Virus record (IMG/VR): IMGVR_UViG_3300044680_000280
Span: 248,001 to 312,000 of that record
Direction: 5' to 3' (one strand)
Length of the DNA stretch: 64,000 nt
DNA from: a virus
This document shows, piece after piece, positions 7,771 to 23,250 of this stretch. A program made the translations under genes and the position numbers. Positions within the stretch are counted from its first letter, which is position 1, and every line of letters starts with the position of its first letter. Below the pieces are notes generated by a model that had not been told where the DNA came from, did not search any database, and saw only the letters and a program-made list of their open reading frames with translations.

Positions 7771-7965
7771 ATGGACCCGTTTACCATCATCGCAATCTTC
7801 GTGCTCATCGGGTACGCTCTTCGGCAACGGCAGAAGGCCAAGGCCGAACGCGAGGTTCGCCTCCGGGTCGAGCTCAAAAACGCGGCTCTCCTGGCCGAGA
7901 TTGAGCGCCAGGGATTCGAGTTCCGCAGCGCATTCAACAACGGACTGGATCTGCACGTCCACTAG
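7771..7965 (+). CDS. Small membrane-anchored coiled-coil protein, 64 aa
   Basis: Residues 3-17 (P-F-T-I-I-A-I-F-V-L-I-G-Y-A-L) form one short membrane segment, followed by a charged helix (residues 20-50) with heptad-like spacing. Such small proteins are often spanin- or holin-associated in phages, but nothing here proves a lysis role. It lies 5 bp after the 7506 gene, probably in the same operon, and its 3' end touches the convergent zincin gene. Confidence 0.6.
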   Translation: MDPFTIIAIFVLIGYALRQRQKAKAEREVRLRVELKNAALLAEIERQGFEFRSAFNNGLDLHVH

Positions 7966-9782
7966 GACAGTAGGTTCAAGAACGTCAAGAAAAGGTCTTC
8001 CCTCTGGGTCGAGGACAAGACAGACTTGAAGCTATCGAGCTGATCCCGAGTCATGTCGTACTCGAGCACGTAGTGGGCAAAAACCTCGGCGAACGCCTCG
8101 TCGATGTTGCTCTTACCGTAGTCGGACACGGGGGTGACGGGACGCTCGTCCGTCTCATACTCCTCGTGGTAAGCTTTCCAGGCATCTCCGACGCGGGCCC
8201 CCTGCGCCTTGTTGAACTCGTCGACTGCGATGTCAATGTACTTGTCAGCTTTGGTCACAGCCTCGACGATCTTTTCCTCGTAGCCGTCGAGCCATTCGGA
8301 CAAGTGTTTCTGAAAAACCTCCATCCAGTAGGCGTCGAAACTCTTCGGCTTTTGACTGGGTTCGGGCTCTGAGTGAATCTTCTTTGAAATGTCCTCGTCA
8401 AAATCAAAGGCGTACCTCTGAACGGCGCTGCTAGCCGTGAGCATTTCATCAAAGGCATGCTTCGTTGTAGGATTCAATGTTGACGAGGCGCCAGCGGAGT
8501 GCACCGCGTCAAGCATGTCGTTGTAAAATGTCCAGCCCGCCTTGGAGACCCGTTCGAAATTCTCCTTGAGGATGTCTCGAAAAAAGCTCTTCTTGGGAAA
8601 AGGGGACGTCAACGGGTCCAGGGACGATCGAACGGCCTTGGCGGCGGCTTGAACCTTTTCTTTGGCTGCTCTCACCGCATCGTTCAAAATGAGAATCGCC
8701 TTACCTGTCGGTTTTGGTTTCTTGTGCACCCTCACCAAGGATTCGAACTTCCCTCTTTGAGACTGGCTCATGAACTTGAACCAGTAGCGGTGCCCGAGCT
8801 CATGAGCCATCAGCTCGACAATGAACCAACTCGGTCGGTTGAACACATTGACGACGTCGGGTCCAATAGGGTAGTTTCCACCCACGCCGCCACCCGTGTT
8901 GTAATTGACCCCTCCACAATCGTTGCAGGAGATGTACACGGTTCCGTACCAAACCTTGTCCAGACGTTTTGCCTTGAGTTTGTGGTACGCCTCCGTCAGG
9001 TACTTGACGTAGTCCTTCACATTTTCTGGCGTTACGGTCAGATCTCGTATAACGACTTTGATGCCATGCAGCTCAAACTGGGTGTGAGTGTCTAGTTTGT
9101 CCTCGGAGTATACGGTCTGAAGCACATCCTTCAGGTGATCGATCCAACTGATGGGATCCACCTTCAAAGCCTTCTTGTCGATGGTGATCAGTCTCTTGAT
9201 GGCTGCATCCAGGTTCAATCGTTTGAAGAGGCCGTACTTCTCATTGAGTCGACTGTAGTCATTGTTCCGACTCCGCTCCAAAGCATCGATCTCGACGGGG
9301 GTCGCCTTTTTGAGCACCTTCTTTGCCAGGGCCACAACAGCTTCCCTGTCGACTTTCCAAACGCCTTTGAGAGCGATTTGAAGACTCGGCACCTTCTCCT
9401 CAAACATCGTCTGTACTTTGGATGTGATTGAGTTGAAAATCTCGTCTTCAACCGTTTGGACTGGATACACGCTATCAATCGCCCGATCAAGCAGAGCGTA
9501 GGAAGCCGATATCTCTTTGAGAGGCTCCTCGATCATCGAGAACCTCATATCGATTGATTGCTCGGCAAACTGGTGGATTCCAAAATTGACTAAGTCCGTT
9601 TTGAATTTTTTGTAGAAGGCTAGGAGGTCGCCAATCTTCCACGACACCTCTCGATTGCTGTCTAGCTTATCCGTAAGGATCTTCTTTAGCTCAGCCTTCT
9701 TCTCCCGCCAGAACTTGTCGGGGATGAACCCACCCGTTCGCAGAAGGAATCGTCGAGCGACACGTTTTGCGAGCTGATCCAC
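7962..9782 (-). CDS. Zincin-like metallopeptidase domain protein, 606 aa
   Basis: The motif A-H-E-L-G-H near residue 333 is a HExxH zinc site, and E-A-F-A-E-V-F-A-H-Y near residue 567 could supply a third ligand, so a metallopeptidase of the gluzincin type is likely. The N-terminal 250 residues are helical and charged. Residues 6-13 (R-V-A-R-R-F-L-L) match the start of the DnaJ-like protein at 29059, hinting at a shared N-terminal signal. GTG start, 12 nt after a -10-like CTATAG. Possible virion or host-takeover protease; substrate unknown. Confidence 0.75.
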   Translation of the reverse strand: MDQLAKRVARRFLLRTGGFIPDKFWREKKAELKKILTDKLDSNREVSWKIGDLLAFYKKFKTDLVNFGIHQFAEQSIDMRFSMIEEPLKEISASYALLDRAIDSVYPVQTVEDEIFNSITSKVQTMFEEKVPSLQIALKGVWKVDREAVVALAKKVLKKATPVEIDALERSRNNDYSRLNEKYGLFKRLNLDAAIKRLITIDKKALKVDPISWIDHLKDVLQTVYSEDKLDTHTQFELHGIKVVIRDLTVTPENVKDYVKYLTEAYHKLKAKRLDKVWYGTVYISCNDCGGVNYNTGGGVGGNYPIGPDVVNVFNRPSWFIVELMAHELGHRYWFKFMSQSQRGKFESLVRVHKKPKPTGKAILILNDAVRAAKEKVQAAAKAVRSSLDPLTSPFPKKSFFRDILKENFERVSKAGWTFYNDMLDAVHSAGASSTLNPTTKHAFDEMLTASSAVQRYAFDFDEDISKKIHSEPEPSQKPKSFDAYWMEVFQKHLSEWLDGYEEKIVEAVTKADKYIDIAVDEFNKAQGARVGDAWKAYHEEYETDERPVTPVSDYGKSNIDEAFAEVFAHYVLEYDMTRDQLDSFKSVLSSTQREDLFLTFLNLLS

Positions 9783-10225: not shown

Positions 10226-10984
10226 ATGTACGCACAACGTCACATAATCATAGGAGATATTCACGGCTGTCTGGACCTTTTGAAGCGCCTGTTAGACCGT
10301 GTGCGCTTCGATCCTTCGGGCGACTCTCTTGTTTTCCTGGGGGACTTCGTTGACCGAGGTCCCGACCCCGTGGGGGTTGTTCGCCTTGTCCGTAAGCTCT
10401 GTCAGGAGTCAAAGGCACGGGCTGTAAATGGAAATCACGAGGAAAAGATGCTTCATTGGCTCACCAATGTTGAGCTAGAGAAGACGAAGGGTCGAAAGAA
10501 CAGCATGCAGCGGCCAAAACCCGAGCGCCTCGCTCAATGGGAGGGGATGAGCCCTGAGGACATCAAGTGGCTCGGCTCCCTTCCCTATCAGCTCAAGGTG
10601 TGTCCTGGCTGGCTAGCCGTGCATGCGGGGTTCGAGAATCGGCCCATGTCCGAGCAGTTATCCGAACGTATGTGCCGTGTGAAGTACGTTAATGCCTCCA
10701 CTGGGAGTTTGGTGAAGCCCGACCGTAAGAATAGAAATGTACCGCCTACGGGTGCGGTCGAGTGGATGTCCACCTGGAGAGGCCCTGAGAGCATCGTCTA
10801 TGGGCACATCGTTCATGGTTTGGGGGCGCCTCGAGTCGATCATCCAGCTCCGGGGGTTGAGACTTGGGGGATCGACACGGGGGCGTGTTACGGCGGGAAC
10901 TTGTCCGCCCTCGTTCTCGAAACCCGTGAAGTGTTCACTGTTTCGGACGGAAAGTCGTACGCTCGACTCTACAACGACGACTGA
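10226..10984 (+). CDS. Serine/threonine metallophosphatase (PPP family)
   Basis: 252 aa. The metallophosphatase signature is complete: G-D-I-H-G (residues 10-14), G-D-F-V-D-R-G-P (39-46), G-N-H-E (69-72), and later His residues in V-H-A-G and G-H-I. It is closest in plan to the lambda-type/PrpE-like bacterial PPP enzymes, which remove phosphate from proteins or small molecules using two metal ions. In phages such enzymes may counter host kinase signalling; the substrate is unknown. Its 3' end overlaps the convergent 10969 gene. Confidence 0.9.
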   Translation: MYAQRHIIIGDIHGCLDLLKRLLDRVRFDPSGDSLVFLGDFVDRGPDPVGVVRLVRKLCQESKARAVNGNHEEKMLHWLTNVELEKTKGRKNSMQRPKPERLAQWEGMSPEDIKWLGSLPYQLKVCPGWLAVHAGFENRPMSEQLSERMCRVKYVNASTGSLVKPDRKNRNVPPTGAVEWMSTWRGPESIVYGHIVHGLGAPRVDHPAPGVETWGIDTGACYGGNLSALVLETREVFTVSDGKSYARLYNDD

Positions 10985-11287: not shown

Positions 11288-13621
11288 ATGAACAGCTACC
11301 AGGTGAACCCAAACCTTTACCTCGTCGTGAATGAGGTAAGTAAGGCCCCAGCAACCAAGATCGTTGATGTCCCCGTCGACCATATTCTCGTGTACGACTG
11401 CTCGGGGAGTATGAGCTATGACTTACCGAAAATACGGGAGCAGGTGAAGAAGAAGCTTCCGAAGATGCTCGGGCCGAATGATCGCCTCAGCATAGTGTGG
11501 TTCTCGGGCCGCGTAGAGCACGGAATTCTCCTTGAAGCTGAACCGGTAGCGACGCTATCGGATCTCAAGACCATCGAGCAAACAATCGATCGGTGGCTTC
11601 GTCCTGTCGGGATGACGGGCTTCAAGGGGCCTCTCGAAGACGTGGTCGCGCTCGCGCAACGTTTGGAGAAGACGGGTGGTAATAGAGCACGGTCGATGAT
11701 GTTCTTTACCGACGGCTGTGACAACCAGTCCAGCCAGAACGAAGTTCTCAAAGCAGTTGAGAACGCGGGCATGCATGTACAATCGGCAACCTTCGTCGAA
11801 TATGGTTACTACGCCAACCGACCCCTGCTAGCCCAAATGGCTGAGAAGAGCGGCGGATCCCTTATCTTTGCCGAGACCTTCGACAAATACGAACCTCAGT
11901 TCGAGGCGTCCATCAAACGCAAGAGCACGAATGCCAAACGAATCGAGGTCACCCTCAAAGGTGACCCGGTCGGTGGGTTTGCCTACGCTCTCCAAGGTGG
12001 AGATCTCGTAACATTCGGTGTCGAGGGCGGAAAGATTTCCGTTCCAGAGGACCTCGGCCAATTCTACTACCTGTCTCCGTCATGCGTCGGAACTCTTGCT
12101 TCGGGTACAAGCATGAAGGGGCTCGACGCCACCCTTTCCGCTGTATACGCAGCGATCAGCCTCTTTTCCGTTCGCATGAAGCCTGACGTTGTGCTCCCCC
12201 TTCTCAAGGTGACGGGCGACGCGAGGTTCATCAAGGATTTCTCGACTTGCTTCGGCAAGCAGAAGTACAGCGCCTTCATGGACGCCACCAAGGCGGCGGC
12301 TTTCGATCGGGATCTGCGGTTGAAGGACGGGTACAACCCGAACCTCGTTCCGCCCGATGACGCGGTCACCGTTCTCGATGTACTCGAGACCCTTTATGAG
12401 GATGAGAGCGCGCGTATCCTCCTCAACGATATGACGTACACGAGCATCGGCCGGGGACGGCTCGACGCCACGGATCAGCTCACGGCGGAAGAGCAAACCC
12501 AAGTCGACACTCTCACCGAGGAGATGGGTAAGACCAAGGACGCGAAGAAGATTCGACTTCTTGCCCAGCAAATCGCCGACATCACTGACAAGCCGGAGGC
12601 CCTCAAGTTCAAACGGGAGGTACCGTCGTCGGGTCTGCCCATCAAGAACCTGACCTTCAACGAGGACCGTCCCAACGTAAGCTTCCTCGTTCAAATCCCG
12701 GGTACCATCGACCTTTCGAGTCGCATCGACAAGGCGACGATCGACTTGACGGGCGTCCCGACCATTTTCAAGTGCTTCCAGTTCCGAAACTATGCCGTCA
12801 TTAAGGATGGGCTCGTCAACATCGAGAAGCTCCCCGTCATCGTGTCCCAGAAGACCTTCGACAAGTTTTTGGCCGAGGGCGTCGTGACGAAGGAGGATGT
12901 TCTACGGCTCGAAACCGACGGGCACTCCGTCGGCTTGTGCATTAATCTCAAGTCCCTTCCCGTCATCAACCGCAAGATGGTGAAGGAGCTCAGCGCCAAG
13001 ACCTTCTTCGAGACCGCGTATGAGGTCACCAAGGCCAAGGCGGCGCAGAAGGTACTCAAGGACTATGCCAAGTCTCTCCTGCCGGAGAAGCAAAGCGTCG
13101 GCTATGCGGACAAATACGGCCAGGAGATCGCCGTGTGGCTCAAGGAGCAAGGGATCACGGACTACAACGGATTCCAGCCTCCCCATACGACGTCGGCGCC
13201 GACGACCGATGTATACACGGGTAAGGAACTGAAGGTCTCCCTCAAGGGACTCTCATCTCTGCCCAAGGTTGCCGAAGTGAAGGCGAAGATCCAAAAGGTG
13301 GGCTCCAAACTCAACGCCCCGTCCGCCCTCATGGCGGAGACGATCAAGGAAGTGGAGGCGTTCCTCTCAAGTGCCGTCTACTTGAAGGCGGCTGACCAGC
13401 CAGGGGTCCTCCAGGCGTGGCTCGACGGACAGACGAAGGCGTCGATCAGGAAGACCCGCGCGCTCATGCTCGACATGGCCAAGTTCACGTTTACGACCGT
13501 CGTCGGTCAAACCTGGTTCAAGGAGTTCTCCTCCGTGGACCAGACAGACATGACGATCACCGTGGACGGTAACGACATTCCGTGCAAGGTGGAAATGAAA
13601 GAGATTGAGATCAGGGTGTAG
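11288..13621 (+). CDS. VWA-domain protein, 777 aa
   Basis: Residues about 35-215 are a von Willebrand factor A domain with a full metal site: D-C-S-G-S-M-S (DxSxS), a Thr in G-M-T-G-F-K-G, and F-F-T-D-G-C-D. VWA domains bind partners through the chelated metal, often in complexes with ATPases or secreted and chaperoned proteins. The remaining 550 residues are not recognised and have no membrane segment. The ATG at 11288 lies 10 nt after a promoter element; an upstream TTG frame is spurious. It heads the ABC transporter-like locus but is separated from the next gene by the opposite-strand 13622 gene. Confidence 0.85.
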   Translation: MNSYQVNPNLYLVVNEVSKAPATKIVDVPVDHILVYDCSGSMSYDLPKIREQVKKKLPKMLGPNDRLSIVWFSGRVEHGILLEAEPVATLSDLKTIEQTIDRWLRPVGMTGFKGPLEDVVALAQRLEKTGGNRARSMMFFTDGCDNQSSQNEVLKAVENAGMHVQSATFVEYGYYANRPLLAQMAEKSGGSLIFAETFDKYEPQFEASIKRKSTNAKRIEVTLKGDPVGGFAYALQGGDLVTFGVEGGKISVPEDLGQFYYLSPSCVGTLASGTSMKGLDATLSAVYAAISLFSVRMKPDVVLPLLKVTGDARFIKDFSTCFGKQKYSAFMDATKAAAFDRDLRLKDGYNPNLVPPDDAVTVLDVLETLYEDESARILLNDMTYTSIGRGRLDATDQLTAEEQTQVDTLTEEMGKTKDAKKIRLLAQQIADITDKPEALKFKREVPSSGLPIKNLTFNEDRPNVSFLVQIPGTIDLSSRIDKATIDLTGVPTIFKCFQFRNYAVIKDGLVNIEKLPVIVSQKTFDKFLAEGVVTKEDVLRLETDGHSVGLCINLKSLPVINRKMVKELSAKTFFETAYEVTKAKAAQKVLKDYAKSLLPEKQSVGYADKYGQEIAVWLKEQGITDYNGFQPPHTTSAPTTDVYTGKELKVSLKGLSSLPKVAEVKAKIQKVGSKLNAPSALMAETIKEVEAFLSSAVYLKAADQPGVLQAWLDGQTKASIRKTRALMLDMAKFTFTTVVGQTWFKEFSSVDQTDMTITVDGNDIPCKVEMKEIEIRV

Positions 13622-14047
13622 TCACGCCCTACTTCTGTGTTCTTTCCTCTCTACCTTCATTTTCAAACCTTTTTTCGCCCTCTTCTCTGCGTAGTGCCGT
13701 GCCATGCTTTCCGATAGTTTTCTGCGTCTCTCTTCGGTCCAAGGCTTCGGCACGTATTTTCGTGTGGTGGGCTCCTCCTGGGGCTTGGCCAACTCAGGAA
13801 CCTTGGCGAGCCCATTGAGGACACCGTTTTGGTGAGCCCCGTTGACTTGAACTACGGTGGGATCCTGTTGAATTTTAGCCAGTTCCTTGCCCTCTTCGAA
13901 TATGAGCTCGATCGCCGCTTCCCGGTTGATCCTTATGTGGATTTTCCCTAGCTCCAACCAAACGTCCCCATCTTCTCCCACGATAATGTTCACGGGAACC
14001 GACCCTAGTCCAATGCGCTTGGTGTGCCGTACGATTTGCTCTACCAT
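13622..14047 (-). CDS. Protein with NUMOD3-like C-terminal motif, 141 aa
   Basis: The N-terminal 50 residues form short strands (G-D-V-W-L-E-L-G-K-I-H-I-R-I). The C-terminus has W-T-E-E-R-R-R-K-L-S-E-S-M and a basic tail, resembling the NUMOD3 DNA-binding helix found in homing endonucleases. No nuclease core is visible. Start ATG follows AGGAGAGGT. It ends 1 bp from the VWA gene in convergent orientation. Likely a small DNA-binding protein; function unknown. Confidence 0.65.
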   Translation of the reverse strand: MVEQIVRHTKRIGLGSVPVNIIVGEDGDVWLELGKIHIRINREAAIELIFEEGKELAKIQQDPTVVQVNGAHQNGVLNGLAKVPELAKPQEEPTTRKYVPKPWTEERRRKLSESMARHYAEKRAKKGLKMKVERKEHRSRA

Positions 14048-14237: not shown

Positions 14238-14897
14238 GTGGCTGAAAACAAAAAGGGTCTGTGGTCCTCCTTGAAGAGCCTTGCCATCGAGGACGTGCCC
14301 GACCCGTCGGCAAAGTCCGCGGTTCCTCTGATTCCAACGACACGTCCAAACCCCGGCGCCGTACCTCCCCCGTGGGTCGCTCCCCCGAGGATTGAAGTTT
14401 CGGTCGATCCGGCAACCTTATCGAAGATCGAGGGCAAACTCCAGGCCTCGACCCCTCCTGTTTATGCGGCGTTTATGGATCAGTTTCAGGCGCTCGAAGC
14501 CGTGATCCCCGACGAGGCAACGCGGTTCAAAGCGGCTCTTGTCGCCAGTCGTTCGTCCATCGAACAGATCTCGGGATCCATCGACCAGCTCCTTGTTGTC
14601 CTGGCGTCTCTGCTTGACGAGTTCAATCGGAAGTTCGAGGACAACCAGAGCAAAGCGGAAACTACAGCCAAGCAGCAGATGGAGGCTGACACGAAGCTCA
14701 TCGCCACTTGCGAGGAGCAACTCAAAGCCATCCAAGCTCAGATTGCTACCCTTCGCACGAAGGTCGACAGCGAACAAGCACAGGTTCAGGCGGAATCCGC
14801 TCGTCGAGAGGGCGTCCGCCAGTCGTTCAAAGCAGCATACGACCAGGTTTTCAATCGCCTCACCGCCCAAAAACAACGCATCTCACAGAGGGTCTAA
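14238..14897 (+). CDS. Coiled-coil protein of the ABC-like locus, 219 aa
   Basis: The first 60 residues are proline-rich and probably disordered (P-T-T-R-P-N-P-G, P-P-P-W-V-A-P-P). Residues about 75-219 are a long helix with heptads, typical of a coiled coil. No signal peptide, so it should act in the cytoplasm. GTG start with GGGAGA upstream. The next gene follows after 3 nt, so the two are surely co-transcribed and perhaps interact through their coiled coils. Confidence 0.7.
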   Translation: MAENKKGLWSSLKSLAIEDVPDPSAKSAVPLIPTTRPNPGAVPPPWVAPPRIEVSVDPATLSKIEGKLQASTPPVYAAFMDQFQALEAVIPDEATRFKAALVASRSSIEQISGSIDQLLVVLASLLDEFNRKFEDNQSKAETTAKQQMEADTKLIATCEEQLKAIQAQIATLRTKVDSEQAQVQAESARREGVRQSFKAAYDQVFNRLTAQKQRISQRV

Positions 14898-14900
14898 ATC

Positions 14901-15941
14901 ATGTCCGGCGAACTAGCTCAAGCCACGAAATCTTGGACGTCTCGTCCCGAAGGCAAAGTCGGCACCGTTTTCGGGTTTCTCCTCCTCGGCGGGGCGGCGA
15001 TTGCCGTTCTGTACTTCTGGGGACTCATTCTGCCTTGGCTGATCATGATGGCGGCGAACACGCTGACCCTGATCGGTCTCTGCGCGGCCATTGCGGGGAT
15101 TCTCTTCATCGTCTTCGACCCACGTTGGCGGAACCTCGCATGGTACGGCTACAAGTCGTTCATGCGAGGGCTCACCGGCATGTTCATCGAGCTCGACCCC
15201 ATCGGCATTCTGAAGAGCTACGTCACCAGCCTCAAAGACAAACTCGAGGAGATGGACAAGTCTCTTGCAAACCTCGACGGTCAACGGGGCAAGCTTCGGA
15301 AGCAGATCGCCGACAACGAGAAAGCCCGCGTCCACGCGCTCAAGATGATGGAAGTTGCCCGCGACCAAAAGCAGAACGCGGCGATGACCCTTCAAGGTCG
15401 CCAAGCGGAAAGACTCGCCCAGTCGAACGTCTCTTTGCAGGACCTTCTGACCCGAATGGATCGCCTTGCGACCGTGCTCGGCAAGATGCGGGAAGCCTCC
15501 GCCATCATGATCGAAGACATCACGAACGAGGTTGAGCTCAAGAGCCGGGAACGTGCCGCCCTCCTCGCCGGGTACAACGCCTTTTCCAAGGCTCGCAGCG
15601 TCATGAAGGGCGGCGGCGATGAAGCCGAGATCTTCAACATGACCATGGAGAAACTGACCGACGATTACGGCATGAAGATGGGTGAGATCGACAACTTCAT
15701 GAAGGTTTCTCAAGGATTCCTCGAGACCGTCGATCTCGAAAATGGCGTTGCCCAGAAGTCCGCAATCGAACAGCTCGAAGCGTGGGAAAATAAGAGTGCC
15801 AACATTCTTGGGCCGACGAACGGCACCGACGTCCACCTTCGAGTCGGCGATGCGGCACCCGCACTTCCGGCCAGCAGCGACGATTTCGCCGACCTCTTCA
15901 CCTCCGATCCCGCGACCCTTTCGGCTTCGGTCAAACGCTAA
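14901..15941 (+). CDS. Membrane-anchored coiled-coil protein, 346 aa
   Basis: Two adjacent membrane segments (residues about 23-44 and 46-72, separated by M-M-A-A-N-T) are followed by a long coiled coil (residues 100-300) reminiscent of PspA/IM30-type proteins, with alanine-rich heptads. The short periplasmic loop and long cytoplasmic tail make it an inner-membrane scaffold. It lies between the soluble coiled-coil gene and the OmpA fusion gene, so may link the ABC complex to cytoplasmic partners. No enzymatic motif is seen. Confidence 0.75.
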   Translation: MSGELAQATKSWTSRPEGKVGTVFGFLLLGGAAIAVLYFWGLILPWLIMMAANTLTLIGLCAAIAGILFIVFDPRWRNLAWYGYKSFMRGLTGMFIELDPIGILKSYVTSLKDKLEEMDKSLANLDGQRGKLRKQIADNEKARVHALKMMEVARDQKQNAAMTLQGRQAERLAQSNVSLQDLLTRMDRLATVLGKMREASAIMIEDITNEVELKSRERAALLAGYNAFSKARSVMKGGGDEAEIFNMTMEKLTDDYGMKMGEIDNFMKVSQGFLETVDLENGVAQKSAIEQLEAWENKSANILGPTNGTDVHLRVGDAAPALPASSDDFADLFTSDPATLSASVKR

Positions 15942-15980
15942 CCGTGCAACTGAAACCAACCCACACAAGGATCTAAATCA

Positions 15981-17777
15981 ATGGCTACTCGTGTCAAACC
16001 GCTCCCGAAGATTCTCCTGGCACTCGCCCTCTTCGGCGGCCTCTTCTTCGTCTTTCACACCCTCGTCGCCAACGGCATCATCTCTCTGCCGGGAACCGCC
16101 GCCGAGGTTCCCAAGGTCGCCGCCGTTCCTACGGCGATTCCGACCGCAACGTCCGCTCCTCTTGTTCCCGCCGTGCCGATGCCGTCGGGCTCCGCCATCT
16201 CGAGCGGGACGAACATTCGAGCCTCCATGTGGGCATGGAACGCTCAAATGGGATTCATGTTCGCCAACGGCGGCCCCGATACGACGTCGGGCTCTCTCAT
16301 GGCCCAACACGGACTGAACGTCCACGTCAAGCGCGAGGACGACACGTCCAAGATGCAAGGAATGCTCATGGCTCTTGCCAAAGGCCTCAAGACCGACCCG
16401 AACACGTCCGCGGGTGTGCACTTCATCACGCTGATGGGCGATGGTACCGCGGCCTTCTTCGCCGCCGCCAACCCCGAGCTCAAGAAGATCTGCAAGGACT
16501 GCGAAGCCGAAGTCGTCGGTGTTCTCGGCTACTCGCGCGGTGAGGACAAGCTCATGGGTCCCGCCGAATGGAAGTCCAACCCGAAAGCCGCTCGCGGTCA
16601 CCTCATCGCGGGCGTCATCCGTGACGGAGACTGGAACGTTGCCATGAAGTGGGCGGGGGACAACGGACTGCTCAACAATCCCGACGAGACTACGTATGAC
16701 CCAGACGCACTGAACTGGCTCAACGCCGACACCTACATCGAGGCTGGGAACAAGTACATCTTGAACGTCTGTGAGCCTCGTCCCGTCGTCCACGGGGGCA
16801 AACGAACGGGCGAGACCAAGAGTGTCTGCGTCGACGGCGTCGTGACCTGGACTCCCGGAGACGTGAACGTGGCCCAAAAGAAGGGCGGTCTCGTTTCGAT
16901 CATCTCGACCAAGGAGTACAGTGGTCAAATGCCTTGCGCCCTTATTGGCATCAAGAAGTGGGACGTAGCCCACAAGACCGAGATCGAAGGCTTCCTGAAA
17001 GCCTCGTTCGATGGTGCGGATCAAGTTCGCCAATACCCGAGCGCCCTGCACAAGGCCGCGGAAATCAGCGCAGCGGTCTACGCAGACCCGGAAGCCAACG
17101 CCGATTACTGGGAGAAGTACTACAAGGGCACGTTAGAGACCGACCGTCAGGGCGTGAAAGTCTCTCTCGGTGGATCGTCCGTCTCCAATCTCGCTGACAA
17201 CCTCCAGATCTTCGGGCTCGCCCCGGGTTCCGCCAACCTTTACGAAGCCACCTACGTGACGTTCGGGGACATCGTGGTGCAGCAGTACCCGAAGCTCGTG
17301 CCGAACTACCCCAAGGTGACCGACGTCGTAAACGTGTCGTTCGTTCAGGATCTCGCAAATTCCGCTCCCCCTTCCCCCGCCGCAACCGCCGAACACAACA
17401 CCTTCGTTGCCGGCGCCCCGGTCGAAACGGTCTCCAAGAAATCGTGGTCGATCAACTTCGAAACGGGTAAAGCAACATTCACGCCAGACGCGATGAAAAC
17501 CCTCACGCAACTCGAGCGCGAACTCGTCATCACTGACCTCGCCATCGAAGTCGACGGTCATACGGACAACACGGGTGACCCATCATTCAATCAGACCCTC
17601 TCGAAGCAGCGCGCGGCGGCTGTTCAGACCTGGCTCTCACAGCAGTCCAGCGCGAACTTCCCACCCGAGCGATTCACCGTTCAAGGCTACGGAGATTCCA
17701 AGCCTATCGCAACGAACTCGACGCCCGTTGGTCAAGCAAAGAACCGTCGAGTCGACGTCGTCCTCGGTCAGCAGTAA
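15981..17777 (+). CDS. Solute-binding-protein/OmpA-like fusion, 598 aa
   Basis: An N-terminal membrane anchor or uncleaved signal (residues 9-29) is followed by a proline/alanine-rich linker and a domain (about 75-450) resembling nitrate/taurine-type ABC solute-binding proteins. The last 120 residues are an OmpA peptidoglycan-binding domain: F-E-T-G-K-A-T-F, then V-D-G-H-T-D-N-T-G and N-R-R-V-D-V-V-L. Together they suggest an inner-membrane anchored periplasmic protein that also grips the cell wall. The fusion is unusual for a transporter, where the binding protein is normally free. It precedes the permease and ATPase genes. Confidence 0.85.
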
Positions 17778-17798
17778 TCAGCAGTTCCAAAGCAGATT

Positions 17799-17837
17799 CT
17801 GGGGTCTCAGTTTCCATATTGAGGCCCCAGCTCTTTT
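17799..17837 (+). terminator. Intrinsic terminator or attenuator within the ABC-like operon
   Basis: CTGGGGTCTCA pairs with TGAGGCCCCAG with one mismatch and is followed by CTCTTTT. It lies between the OmpA-fusion gene and the permease gene, so it could reduce expression of the transport genes relative to the upstream ones. Confidence 0.7.
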
Positions 17838-17849
17838 AATGAGGGTACC

Positions 17850-18638
17850 ATGAACAGACACGACTTGTCCGAAGCTCTCAAACCGAACGGCCATGTGTCA
17901 TCCAGAGCCACCACGATCCTTTTCGTCGGCACCCTCGTGGCCCTCATCGGGGCCTGGTTCGCTCGACCCGACTTCATTCCCGGTCCCGTCGAGGTGGCTC
18001 AAGCGTATCCCCGACTGTTCGATCAGGGTCTCTTCTATCAGCTCTACATCAGCCTCTCGACAAACCTTCAAGCCATCGCCCTCTCCTGCTTCTTTACGAT
18101 TCCGTTGGCGTACTTGAGCGTTCTTCCCGTCATGCGGCCCCTCGTCCACATGCTTTGCAAAGGACGGTTCCTCGGTGTCACCGGGTTCGTCATCCTCTTC
18201 ACCATCTTCTTCGGCGGTGGACACGCGCTGAAGGTCGCTTTGCTCGTCTTTGGAATGAGCTTGTTTCTCGTGACATCTCTTTTTGACATCGTCGAGAGCA
18301 TCCCCCGAGAGGAGTTTGACCACACCCGAACGCTCCGCATGGGGGACTGGGGCTCGGTGATCGAGGTGGTTATCCTAGGAAGGTTCGACCAGGTTCTCGA
18401 CGCCATCCGTCAGAACGCTGCCATGGGTTGGGTCATGTTGACCATGGTGGAGGGACTCGTCCGGTTCGAAGGAGGACTGGGGGCTCTCATGCTGGCTGAG
18501 GACAAGCATATCAAACTGGACGCCGTCTTCGCCGTTCAAATCATCGTTCTGGTCATCGGTATCCTTCAGGACGTCGCCCTCCGTGCCATACGGCACCTTC
18601 TTTGCCCCTATGCCGAACTATCCCTCGAAAGGCATTAG
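17850..18638 (+). CDS. ABC transporter permease, nitrate/taurine type
   Basis: 262 aa with about six membrane segments (first at residues 22-38; others near 67-90, 100-120, 125-145, 185-205 and 225-245). The loop E-F-D-H-T-R-T-L-R-M-G-D-W is the EAA coupling motif that contacts the ATPase. This resembles the BPD-type permeases of nitrate/sulfonate/taurine importers. It has its ATPase two genes downstream and a binding-protein fusion upstream, so a full transporter-like complex is encoded. What it moves, if anything, cannot be read. Confidence 0.85.
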   Translation: MNRHDLSEALKPNGHVSSRATTILFVGTLVALIGAWFARPDFIPGPVEVAQAYPRLFDQGLFYQLYISLSTNLQAIALSCFFTIPLAYLSVLPVMRPLVHMLCKGRFLGVTGFVILFTIFFGGGHALKVALLVFGMSLFLVTSLFDIVESIPREEFDHTRTLRMGDWGSVIEVVILGRFDQVLDAIRQNAAMGWVMLTMVEGLVRFEGGLGALMLAEDKHIKLDAVFAVQIIVLVIGILQDVALRAIRHLLCPYAELSLERH

Positions 18639-18640
18639 AC

Positions 18641-18862
18641 ATGAATCCCCTCAAACAACGAGAACAAATCCTCGTCGACTTTCTCTGTTTCATGCTGTTT
18701 GGACTCGTACTGTTCTTATTCGGAGGAGTCCCCCTTGTTCGTATGATTGGTGCCACGATCATCGCAAGCACCATCATCATTCACGGGTATGTCCAAATGC
18801 GGCTCTGCCAACAGATTGAGAAAGACGGTTACGATTCAGTAACCGGGGAGAAGAAGTCGTGA
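18641..18862 (+). CDS. Small two-segment membrane protein, 73 aa
   Basis: Two hydrophobic segments (residues about 12-31 and 33-52) and a short charged tail. It lies 2 bp after the permease and overlaps the ATPase start by GTGA, so it is a regular member of the operon, perhaps a transporter accessory subunit. Not recognised. Start at 18641 is preferred over the upstream in-frame ATG inside the permease gene. Confidence 0.7.
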   Translation: MNPLKQREQILVDFLCFMLFGLVLFLFGGVPLVRMIGATIIASTIIIHGYVQMRLCQQIEKDGYDSVTGEKKS

Positions 18863-19680
18863 GTCAGGTCTGTGAACGCAAAGAAGTTCTCGTCAAGCTC
18901 GACAACATCTCCCTATCCTTTGACGGGCGGCCGGTTCTCTCCGACATCAACGCGGAAGTTCGGGACATCGTTCGTCCAGGTTGCGTGACGGGTCAGGTCG
19001 TAGGAATCCTCGGCCCGAGCGGTGTGGGAAAAACTCAGCTCTCGCGAATCATGACTGGACTCATGGAGCCAACGACGGGCGCCGTACGAGTCGGCGTCAG
19101 GCTCGAACCGATCCACGCTGGACTTGTTGGCTACGTTGCCCAGAACTACCCTCTTCTCCGTCACCGGACCGTGCTCGGGAATCTCATGGTTGCCGCTCGT
19201 CGTTCGGGCCTGAGCTCCGACGGGGCAAAGGATAAGGCGATGGGATACCTCGGCATGTTTGGACTCCAAGACAAGTGGGACGCTTATCCCGCTCAGTTAT
19301 CGGGTGGACAGCGCCAACGAATCGCCATTGCCCAGCAGCTTCTATGCTCGGAGCACTTCCTCATTCTGGATGAGCCAACAACGGGACTCGATCCCATCAT
19401 GAAGGACAAGGTCTGCGGTTTCATTCGTCAGGTTGCCAGCCTCTACGAGGAGAACACGATCTTCGTCATCACTCACGACATCTCGGCGATCCTCACGATT
19501 GCTGACACACTTTGGGTCCTCGGGCGCCGTAAGGACGCGGCGGGCAACGCCATCGGGGCGACCATCGTCAAGACTTACGACCTCATCGAACGTGGCATCG
19601 CCTGGGAAACGGACGTCGCCACCACCCCGCAGTACCGCGACGCTCAACGAGAGATTCGATCTCTATTTGAGACCCTCTAG
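18859..19680 (+). CDS. ABC transporter ATP-binding protein
   Basis: 273 aa. Walker A G-P-S-G-V-G-K-T (residues 54-61), Q-loop V-A-Q-N-Y, signature L-S-G-G-Q-R-Q-R, Walker B L-I-L-D-E-P-T-T-G-L-D and the switch His in V-I-T-H-D are all present, so it should hydrolyse ATP. It belongs with the permease to a nitrate/taurine-type import complex. GTG start overlapping the upstream stop. Its 3' end overlaps the convergent 19663 gene by 18 bp. Complete ABC importers are rare in phages. Confidence 0.92.
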   Translation: MSQVCERKEVLVKLDNISLSFDGRPVLSDINAEVRDIVRPGCVTGQVVGILGPSGVGKTQLSRIMTGLMEPTTGAVRVGVRLEPIHAGLVGYVAQNYPLLRHRTVLGNLMVAARRSGLSSDGAKDKAMGYLGMFGLQDKWDAYPAQLSGGQRQRIAIAQQLLCSEHFLILDEPTTGLDPIMKDKVCGFIRQVASLYEENTIFVITHDISAILTIADTLWVLGRRKDAAGNAIGATIVKTYDLIERGIAWETDVATTPQYRDAQREIRSLFETL

Positions 19681-22418: not shown

Positions 22419-22430
22419 ACTCTTGACAAT

Positions 22431-22437
22431 TACACCG
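22431..22437 (-). promoter_or_regulatory. GGTGTA-type promoter element before the tRNA-like gene
   Basis: CCGGTGTAATTG on the - strand, 12 nt before the acceptor stem. Its use before an RNA gene argues that the motif is a promoter and not a translation signal. Confidence 0.6.
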
Positions 22438-22464
22438 GTTCTCTACTTGTGCCCTCACTCGAGT

Positions 22465-23250
22465 ATGACAACGACTCGCAAAGTTCAACGCTACGGATGG
22501 GTCCCCGACCTTCCGGACCATCGAGACCATCTCTACGCCGCTCCCAGCCCCGTGCTAGCGGCCCTTCCCCCGTCAGTCGACCTTCGCCCCAACTGCCCCG
22601 CCGTCTACGACCAAGGTCAATTGGGAAGCTGCACCGCTAATGCAATCGGTGCTGCGTTCGAGTTCGACCAGATCAAGGAAAAACTTCCTCATGTCTGGAG
22701 GCCATCGCGCCTGTTCATTTACTACAACGAGCGTTCCATCGAGGGCACCGTGTCGCAGGACGCAGGAGCTCAAATTCGAGACGGCATCAAAAGCGTTGCG
22801 TCCCAGGGCGCTTGCTCCGAAGACCTCTGGCCGTACGACATCACGAAGTTTGCGGATCAGCCACCGGCGGACACCTACACGAACGCCTCGAAGCATCTCG
22901 TGACGAGCTACCAGTCGGTTGCTCAGGACGCGCAACAGATCAAGGGCTGCCTCGCCTCGGGTTACCCCGTAGTTTTCGGCTTCACGGTCTACTCGGACTT
23001 CGAGTCTCAGCAGGTTGCATCGACCGGCGTCGTCAACATGCCGACCTCGAGTGAAACGGTCGTCGGTGGTCACGCGGTTCTCTGCGTTGGCTACGACGAC
23101 TCGACGAGCCAGTTCATCGTTCGCAATTCTTGGGGCAACGGGTGGGGTCTCAACGGGTACTTCCTCTTCCCGTACCAGTATCTCCTCAGTTCGAGCCTCG
23201 CGTCCGACCTGTGGACCGTTAGATTCGTACAGGGTACACCGAACTCGTAA
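22465..23250 (+). CDS. Papain-family (C1A) cysteine protease
   Basis: 261 aa. The active site is complete: Gln in Y-D-Q-G-Q-L-G-S-C, nucleophile Cys in the same block followed by T-A-N-A, His in G-G-H-A-V, and Asn in R-N-S-W-G. No signal peptide or long propeptide, so it is likely mature as made. Bacterial and phage papain homologues of this type occur in virions or act on host proteins. Start ATG at 22465 is the only one with suitable spacing to the TTGACA at 22423. Confidence 0.88.
   Translation: MTTTRKVQRYGWVPDLPDHRDHLYAAPSPVLAALPPSVDLRPNCPAVYDQGQLGSCTANAIGAAFEFDQIKEKLPHVWRPSRLFIYYNERSIEGTVSQDAGAQIRDGIKSVASQGACSEDLWPYDITKFADQPPADTYTNASKHLVTSYQSVAQDAQQIKGCLASGYPVVFGFTVYSDFESQQVASTGVVNMPTSSETVVGGHAVLCVGYDDSTSQFIVRNSWGNGWGLNGYFLFPYQYLLSSSLASDLWTVRFVQGTPNS

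Follow-up and report, generated by a model that had tools for sequence, protein, structure and literature searches.

Why would a giant phage carry what appears to be a complete ATP-binding cassette (ABC) importer, and why would the binding protein of this importer be fastened to the host cell wall and accompanied by coiled-coil proteins? The question is raised by positions 14238–19680 of a 64,000-nt stretch of DNA (hereafter the window), representing bases 248001–312000 of the 406,734-base (406.7-kb) virus record IMGVR_UViG_3300044680_000280. We found that five genes of this locus, encoding a coiled-coil protein (CC), a membrane coiled-coil protein (MCC), a solute-binding protein fused to an OmpA-like domain (SBP/OmpA), a permease and an ATPase, form a conserved set that recurs in other huge phages and in bacteria. 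The answer that we favor, with about even confidence, is an importer of the NitT/TauT type that is anchored to the wall and coupled to an ESCRT-III-like coat; the coat, itself anchored in the membrane, would serve to maintain the inner membrane of the infected host. The six open reading frames (ORFs) outlined in a first-pass annotation of the locus are all in place and all on the plus strand; they are listed here together with a hairpin (TM, transmembrane):

14238–14897, plus strand: CC, 219 aa, GTG start; core component
14901–15941, plus strand: MCC, 346 aa, two TM helices followed by a long helical hairpin; core component
15981–17777, plus strand: SBP/OmpA, 598 aa, one N-terminal TM helix (5–36); core component
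17799–17830, plus strand: terminator-like hairpin between the SBP/OmpA and permease genes, 13 pairs and a T-rich tail; probable attenuator
17850–18638, plus strand: permease of the TauC/NrtB/CmpB type, 262 aa; core component
18641–18862, plus strand: small TM protein, 73 aa; accessory, not conserved
18859–19680, plus strand: ABC ATPase, 273 aa, overlapping the small TM gene by 4 nt; core component

Viral contigs were searched first with individual proteins and afterwards with alignments of the SBP domain and of the permease, which gave 37 and 26 loci, respectively, many of them on shared contigs, while a scan of bacterial genomes with the SBP domain gave 79 loci. This search for the same gene order, proposed in the first-pass annotation, showed that the set recurs in both phages and bacteria. 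The order CC-MCC-SBP/OmpA-permease-ATPase, which defines the conserved core, is kept in 33 of the 45 distinct viral loci (45 distinct viral SBP sequences), and several of the remaining loci are truncated by contig ends. The SBP gene is adjacent to the transporter genes in nearly all loci. In phages, MCC and CC are linked to the set nearly as consistently as the transporter genes, and both coiled-coil proteins, already suspected to be components, belong to the recurring ordered core. Since this order recurs in distant genomes, a chance arrangement is excluded. The small TM protein, previously counted as a member, was rejected as a core part: a TM ORF occupies the permease-ATPase junction in 14 of 63 viral and 0 of 64 bacterial cases, and the sequences are unlike one another.

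The ATPase matches ABC_tran (PF00005, E 1.2e-24), and its Walker A and Walker B motifs, the signature LSGGQRQR and the Q- and H-loops are kept across the aligned relatives. Both the ATPase motifs and the EAA motif of the permease had been described as intact; the former are conserved and the EAA loop is present as a conserved variant, EEFDH(A/T)RTL. The window permease alone matched no Pfam model, BPD_transp_1 is matched by five of six aligned members of its family, and the family profile reaches CmpB (1.7e-18) and NrtB (4e-16) in the PDB. On these profile matches the permease is classified as a NitT/TauT-type (TauC/NrtB/CmpB) importer subunit, not as an FtsX/MacB-like one.

The SBP/OmpA protein is composed of an N-terminal TM anchor, a NitT/TauT-type solute-binding domain (residues ~75–470) and an OmpA-like domain (~490–598) matching PF00691 (E 8e-19). 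In its AlphaFold model, with a pLDDT (predicted local distance difference test) score of 91.2, the SBP domain is matched in the PDB by the folds of TauA, NrtA, CmpA and SsuA (TM-score to TauA 0.73 by target length), and the OmpA domain by those of TagL, OmpA and YfiB. OmpA-like domains hold diaminopimelate by a pair of Asp and Arg residues, usually 15 positions apart. The corresponding Asp529 and Arg544 (spacing 15) are invariant in a 66-row alignment, and in a 20-row alignment the Asp is missing only from the two copies of phage G. The binding protein thus appears, as had been proposed, to be tied both to the inner membrane by its TM anchor and, by prediction, to peptidoglycan by the OmpA-like domain with its Asp/Arg pair; combined with the ATPase and the permease, this TauA/NrtA-like protein also supports the earlier notion of a complete ABC-importer-like inner-membrane set. 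In phage G, which has a Gram-positive host, two SBP-OmpA proteins are encoded in tandem (gp249 and gp250, L008:9155–12360), with the Asp lost and the Arg kept, perhaps as an adaptation to a different cell wall. The phage G and Lak forms match NMT1/THI5-like Pfam models, and compared with them the SBP domain of the window type has large insertions; many of its residues are invariant.

The hairpin downstream of the SBP gene seems to be a recurrent feature as well. Scored in a fixed 120-nt stretch after each gene, terminator-like hairpins follow SBP in 13 of 35 distinct viral loci against 0.1 expected in shuffles (which kept base composition only), and follow CC, MCC and permease in 0/35, 1/40 and 0/35, respectively; related loci are not independent events, and the CC-MCC gaps are short, so space may explain part of the contrast. 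The MCC-SBP gap, over 40 nt long in 33 of 40 loci, is the fairer control and yielded a hairpin in 1 of 40. The hairpins of the SBP junction differ in sequence between lineages, and in bacteria they were found in 4 of 69 loci. Most simply, this pattern would mean that CC, MCC and SBP are made in excess over the permease and ATPase. Importer operons commonly produce the binding protein in excess over the transporter, a pattern that the SBP-specific hairpins fit.

Up to this point the locus would suit plain nutrient uptake, the chief rival explanation, according to which the set imports a small, probably anionic compound (a sulfonate, a nitrate/bicarbonate-like or a thiamine-precursor-like compound) and MCC, CC and the OmpA domain have no other task than to position the transporter. 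It is favored by the closeness of the SBP fold to TauA/NrtA/CmpA/SsuA and of the permease to CmpB/NrtB, by the NMT1/THI5-like matches of the phage G and Lak SBPs, by the intact ATPase motifs and by the attenuator pattern of SBP excess. What it accommodates less readily are the two coiled-coil proteins and the company that the set keeps in bacteria.

The hydrophobic block of MCC (residues ~18–76) corresponds to two TM helices flanked by positive charges on either outer side, and the remainder of the protein, including the hairpin, is therefore predicted to be cytoplasmic. The AlphaFold model contains a confident helical hairpin (100–155/159–235). When compared by Foldseek with 350,542 PDB chains, the nine best matches of this model were all Vipp1/PspA (best E 1e-3), with CHMP1B ranked lower. 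Viral and bacterial MCC match each other at 100% in hhalign, and comparison with the PspA profile gave probabilities of 84% for bacterial MCC and 87%, over the full length, for gp247 of phage G, against 0.5–17% for the bacterial and viral CC used as controls. CC itself is a soluble protein with a short N-terminal amphipathic-looking segment, a P/A-rich linker and a C-terminal coiled coil. It is alignable with Lak, phage G and bacterial members, and, of three bacterial CC families, two are matched by the viral CC profile (probabilities 86 and 97.5%), as is the CC of LR756501 (98.6%), so that, by chained profile matches, CC is assigned to one family across phages and bacteria.

In the bacterial genomes, the SBP/OmpA-permease-ATPase genes are present in Acidobacteriota, Armatimonadota, Myxococcota, Burkholderiales, Serratia, Flavobacterium and others, and most of these loci share 41–60% identity with the window in the SBP domain. 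Some bacteria carry CC-MCC upstream, as phages do, and others have CC downstream together with MP301, a different two-TM coiled coil located after the ATPase. MP301 may be considered as a stand-in for MCC, yet profiles give no link between them. Some of the clusters with MP301 and CC downstream additionally encode a genuine PspA (PF04012, E 6e-18) and an AAA+ ATPase (PF00004), and homologues of the AAA+ proteins were found in at least 13 bacterial loci. In Flavobacterium panacis (L125:1304–14785) the set lies directly after atp genes, recognized by eye from translations, with the gene of an AAA+ ATPase containing AAA_lid_6 downstream; because it adjoins atp genes, this set is chromosomal. We also noted the complete CC-MCC-SBP-permease-ATPase set in cultured strains of Undibacterium (L118:7764–13396) and Serratia (L113:7915–13296), which are thereby candidates for genetic work. 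Among the bacterial neighbors that were clustered, no metabolic gene family obviously recurs beside the set. The first-pass annotation had regarded the discovery of the set with a clear solute in ordinary bacteria as damaging to its proposal; the set does exist there, but a solute assignment was found neither there nor in the literature read.

Bacterial operons of this kind are already in print. In the main text of Ravi et al. (2024; mSystems, PMC11237479), homologues of PspA and of TM-anchored Snf7 are described in operons with an ABC ATPase, a permease and a PBPB-OmpA protein, e.g., OGG56892.1; an AAA+ ATPase is associated with these PspA/Snf7-TM operons, the function being given as unknown, and a link between membrane remodelling and solute transport is proposed. 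Phages are not discussed in that text.

These data allow the two readings to be weighed. Nutrient import by itself seems unlikely to us, since in phages the linkage of MCC and CC to the set is almost as consistent as that of the transporter genes, MCC has a Vipp1/PspA-like predicted fold, PspA and AAA+ partners occur in bacteria, and the clustered bacterial neighbors lack an obvious recurring metabolic family. An importer coupled to an ESCRT-III-like coat is supported by the PspA and AAA+ genes of the bacterial clusters, the PspA-like ORF beside the diverged set of the 595-kb phage, the operons of Ravi et al., the predicted MCC and SBP folds, the charge pattern that places the MCC hairpin in the cytoplasm, the SBP-specific hairpins and the recurrence of gene order. 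Several results weigh against this coupling. The viral MCC profile alone matches PspA with a probability of only 18%, a search of the PDB with the MCC profile reaches Vipp1 at E 2.5–4, among generic coiled coils, and the best Foldseek E-value of the model is only 1e-3. MCC of the window, Lak and phage G has no sequence match to PspA_IM30 (PF04012). The viral loci read yielded no homologue of the AAA+ remodelling ATPase, although a copy may lie elsewhere in the phage genome; because AAA+ is absent from these loci, filament turnover in phages would need another factor. We consequently describe MCC as predicted to be ESCRT-III-like at the fold level, on the basis of the modelled fold and moderate profile scores, and, as there is no PF04012 match, we do not assign it to the PspA family. 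Membrane maintenance, one of the options raised in the first-pass annotation, becomes a serious candidate role, and the predicted Vipp1/PspA fold of MCC adds weight to it.

Among phages, 12 IMG/VR contigs bearing the set are 200 kb or longer. The set is also carried by LR756500 (462 kb) and, in the core order, by LR756501 (735 kb) and Lak-A1 (542 kb, read with code 15); the permease is present in all 15 Lak records. Bacillus phage G has a rearranged version with the permease, a small TM protein, ATPase, CC and MCC followed by two SBP/OmpA genes. A diverged form was found in LR756511 (595 kb; L011:2308–10870), which encodes three solute-binding proteins, two of them OmpA-fused, in the order: two SBP-OmpA ORFs, a VWA-TM protein, a two-TM protein, a PspA-like ORF (recognized by eye), the third SBP, permease and ATPase. 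Related gene sets in other large phages, already mentioned in the first-pass annotation, do exist. Yet, the set is not universal in jumbo phages: SBP and permease are both missing from seven of the 12 named phages tested (LR756502, LR756504, LR756508, Atu_ph07, SCTP-2, phiKZ and XacN1), a count that is no estimate of prevalence, as the five positive ones were picked as known positives. In the tree, viral sequences fall into several separate groups, and Flavobacterium L125 is placed beside a clade of 27 viruses (support 1.0); the node joining the window group has a support of 0.15 and the root is uncertain. A phage-only origin was rejected, as bacterial chromosomes carry the set.

This patchy distribution, in some huge phages and not in others, is what would be expected of an optional competitive trait, and together with the envelope-spanning architecture it could point to superinfection exclusion or counter-defence, in which a wall-anchored complex blocks injection by other phages or protects against membrane-attacking host defences. 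Al-Shayeb et al. (2020; PMC7162821) suggested that membrane and surface proteins of huge phages in general may affect susceptibility to other phages. We consider this improbable, given that related sets occur in bacteria in non-phage surroundings, such as beside the atp genes of F. panacis, and that PADLOC returned matches to shared domains only (the ZorB OmpA domain and ABC ATPases), on which ground identity with a defence system was also rejected. A mechanical or lysis-timing device without transport, whose ATPase would drive a wall-linked conformational change as in FtsEX while the SBP serves as a spacer or signal receptor, would draw on the double anchoring to membrane and wall, the coiled-coil partners and the large insertions of the window-type SBP domain. 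It seems quite improbable in view of the permease, which is of the NitT/TauT importer type and not FtsX/MacB-like, and of the TauA-like fold and many invariant residues retained by the SBP. That the ORFs are unrelated, or are a bacterial cassette carried passively without a selected function, is hardly credible: bacterial relatives do exist and the tree splits the viral sequences into several groups, but phages that diverge widely and differ in genetic code and host have retained both the gene order and the catalytic motifs, which contradicts the unrelatedness that the first-pass annotation had kept in view.

Upstream of the set lie two further ORFs:

11288–13621, plus strand: VWA-domain protein, phrog_2426 (E 7e-180); neighbor, judged to be outside the system
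13622–14047, minus strand: ORF of 141 aa between the VWA gene and the set; no significant family match

The VWA gene had been included in the proposed system, which we do not uphold, because it is separated from the set by the minus-strand ORF and belongs to a common phage family. This family, phrog_2426, is present in 497 phage records at ~34% identity (the listed ones being 150–170-kb phages), and among the loci read the contig of L003, a related huge phage, is the only one on which the VWA gene lies next to the set.

Other genes of the window include a 606-aa protein (7962–9782, minus strand) with the HExxH-type metallopeptidase motif MAHELGHRYWF and weak matches to metallopeptidase families, a PPP-type phosphoesterase (10226–10984, plus strand; GDIHGC, GDFVDRG and GNHE motifs) retained upstream of the set in L003 at 54% identity, and a papain-like cysteine peptidase (22423–23250, plus strand; phrog_16701, E 1e-17) with 78% identity in L003. 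The record represents a tailed phage, as a 1491-aa protein at ~123.7–128.1 kb matches the tail sheath family phrog_2839 (E 1e-24). Terminase Pfam models matched nowhere in its genome; the gp23 model matched nowhere it was run, and so says little about the record. A GroEL-like chaperonin ORF (L187:12630–14315, minus strand; ~212.6–214.3 kb of the record) was spotted by eye from its N-terminal sequence.

From the families, predicted folds, motifs, gene order and recurrence established by computation we infer a physical complex with transport activity, polymerisation of MCC and a role in membrane maintenance. The five core genes would encode the phage form of an envelope machine that is widespread in bacteria; its ABC transporter, of the NitT/TauT type, would consist of the permease and the ATPase. 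The N-terminal helix of the SBP would hold the inner membrane and its OmpA-like domain the peptidoglycan, so that, doubly anchored, the SBP would sit over the transporter and bridge membrane and wall. MCC, residing in the same membrane with its hairpin in the cytoplasm, may form an ESCRT-III/PspA-like coat, perhaps with CC. In the infected cell, a small solute would be captured outside the inner membrane by this machine, which would also stabilize or reshape the membrane, keeping the host sealed and energized through the long infection of a large phage.

Giant phages as distant in lineage as phage G, Lak, the 735-kb phage and the present record, both isolated and metagenomic, share the same five-gene set, which suggests that giant phages bring their own equipment for the upkeep of host membranes. 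Somewhat more tentatively, we propose that unrelated lineages of huge phages each encode an ABC machine, anchored to the wall and coupled to ESCRT-III, by which the inner membrane of the host is maintained or remodelled, an envelope-support trait not previously described. If membrane maintenance is true, it would help to explain how cells last long enough for very large virions to be made, and it would provide a virus-encoded ESCRT-III-like system in bacteria. An uncharacterised bacterial operon also becomes testable in cultured phage G and in the cultured carriers Flavobacterium, Undibacterium and Massilia.

The bacterial operon is thus known, and has been published uncharacterised. Our search of the open-access literature, with subscription papers and supplements lying outside it, found no paper describing the phage set. 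With respect to this literature, what is new is that a conserved five-gene core recurs as a cassette of huge phages, among them Lak, phage G and the 735-kb phage, that the modelled fold of MCC resembles Vipp1/PspA and that of the SBP TauA/NrtA/CmpA, that the phage loci read lack the AAA+ partner and that hairpins are specific to the SBP junction.

Compared with known systems, the set resembles NitT/TauT-family importers (TauABC, SsuABC, NrtABCD and CmpABCD) in SBP fold, permease family and ATPase type. It differs from them by the TM-anchored and OmpA-fused SBP and by the two coiled-coil/ESCRT-III-like partners. With the OmpA-like domains of TagL, YfiB, OmpA and MotB it shares the fold and the conserved Asp/Arg pair, but here the domain is joined to a solute-binding domain, and the phage G copies are devoid of the Asp. 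PspA/Vipp1, the bacterial ESCRT-III proteins, are alike in the predicted long helical hairpin fold, membrane association and envelope-stress setting, whereas the window MCC has two N-terminal TM helices and no PF04012 sequence match. The Jug phages (preprint, PMC12363816) are likewise huge phages with a PspA-like gene, located beside terD; the main text mentions neither an ABC transporter nor an OmpA protein. A counterpart matched by component list, and not by alignment of the published example protein, is the operon of Ravi et al., with its ABC ATPase, permease, solute/peptidoglycan-binding protein and TM-anchored ESCRT-III-like protein. The phage versions differ from it in that AAA+ is absent from the loci read and a separate soluble PspA is usually absent, while CC-MCC is kept upstream and a hairpin often follows the SBP gene.

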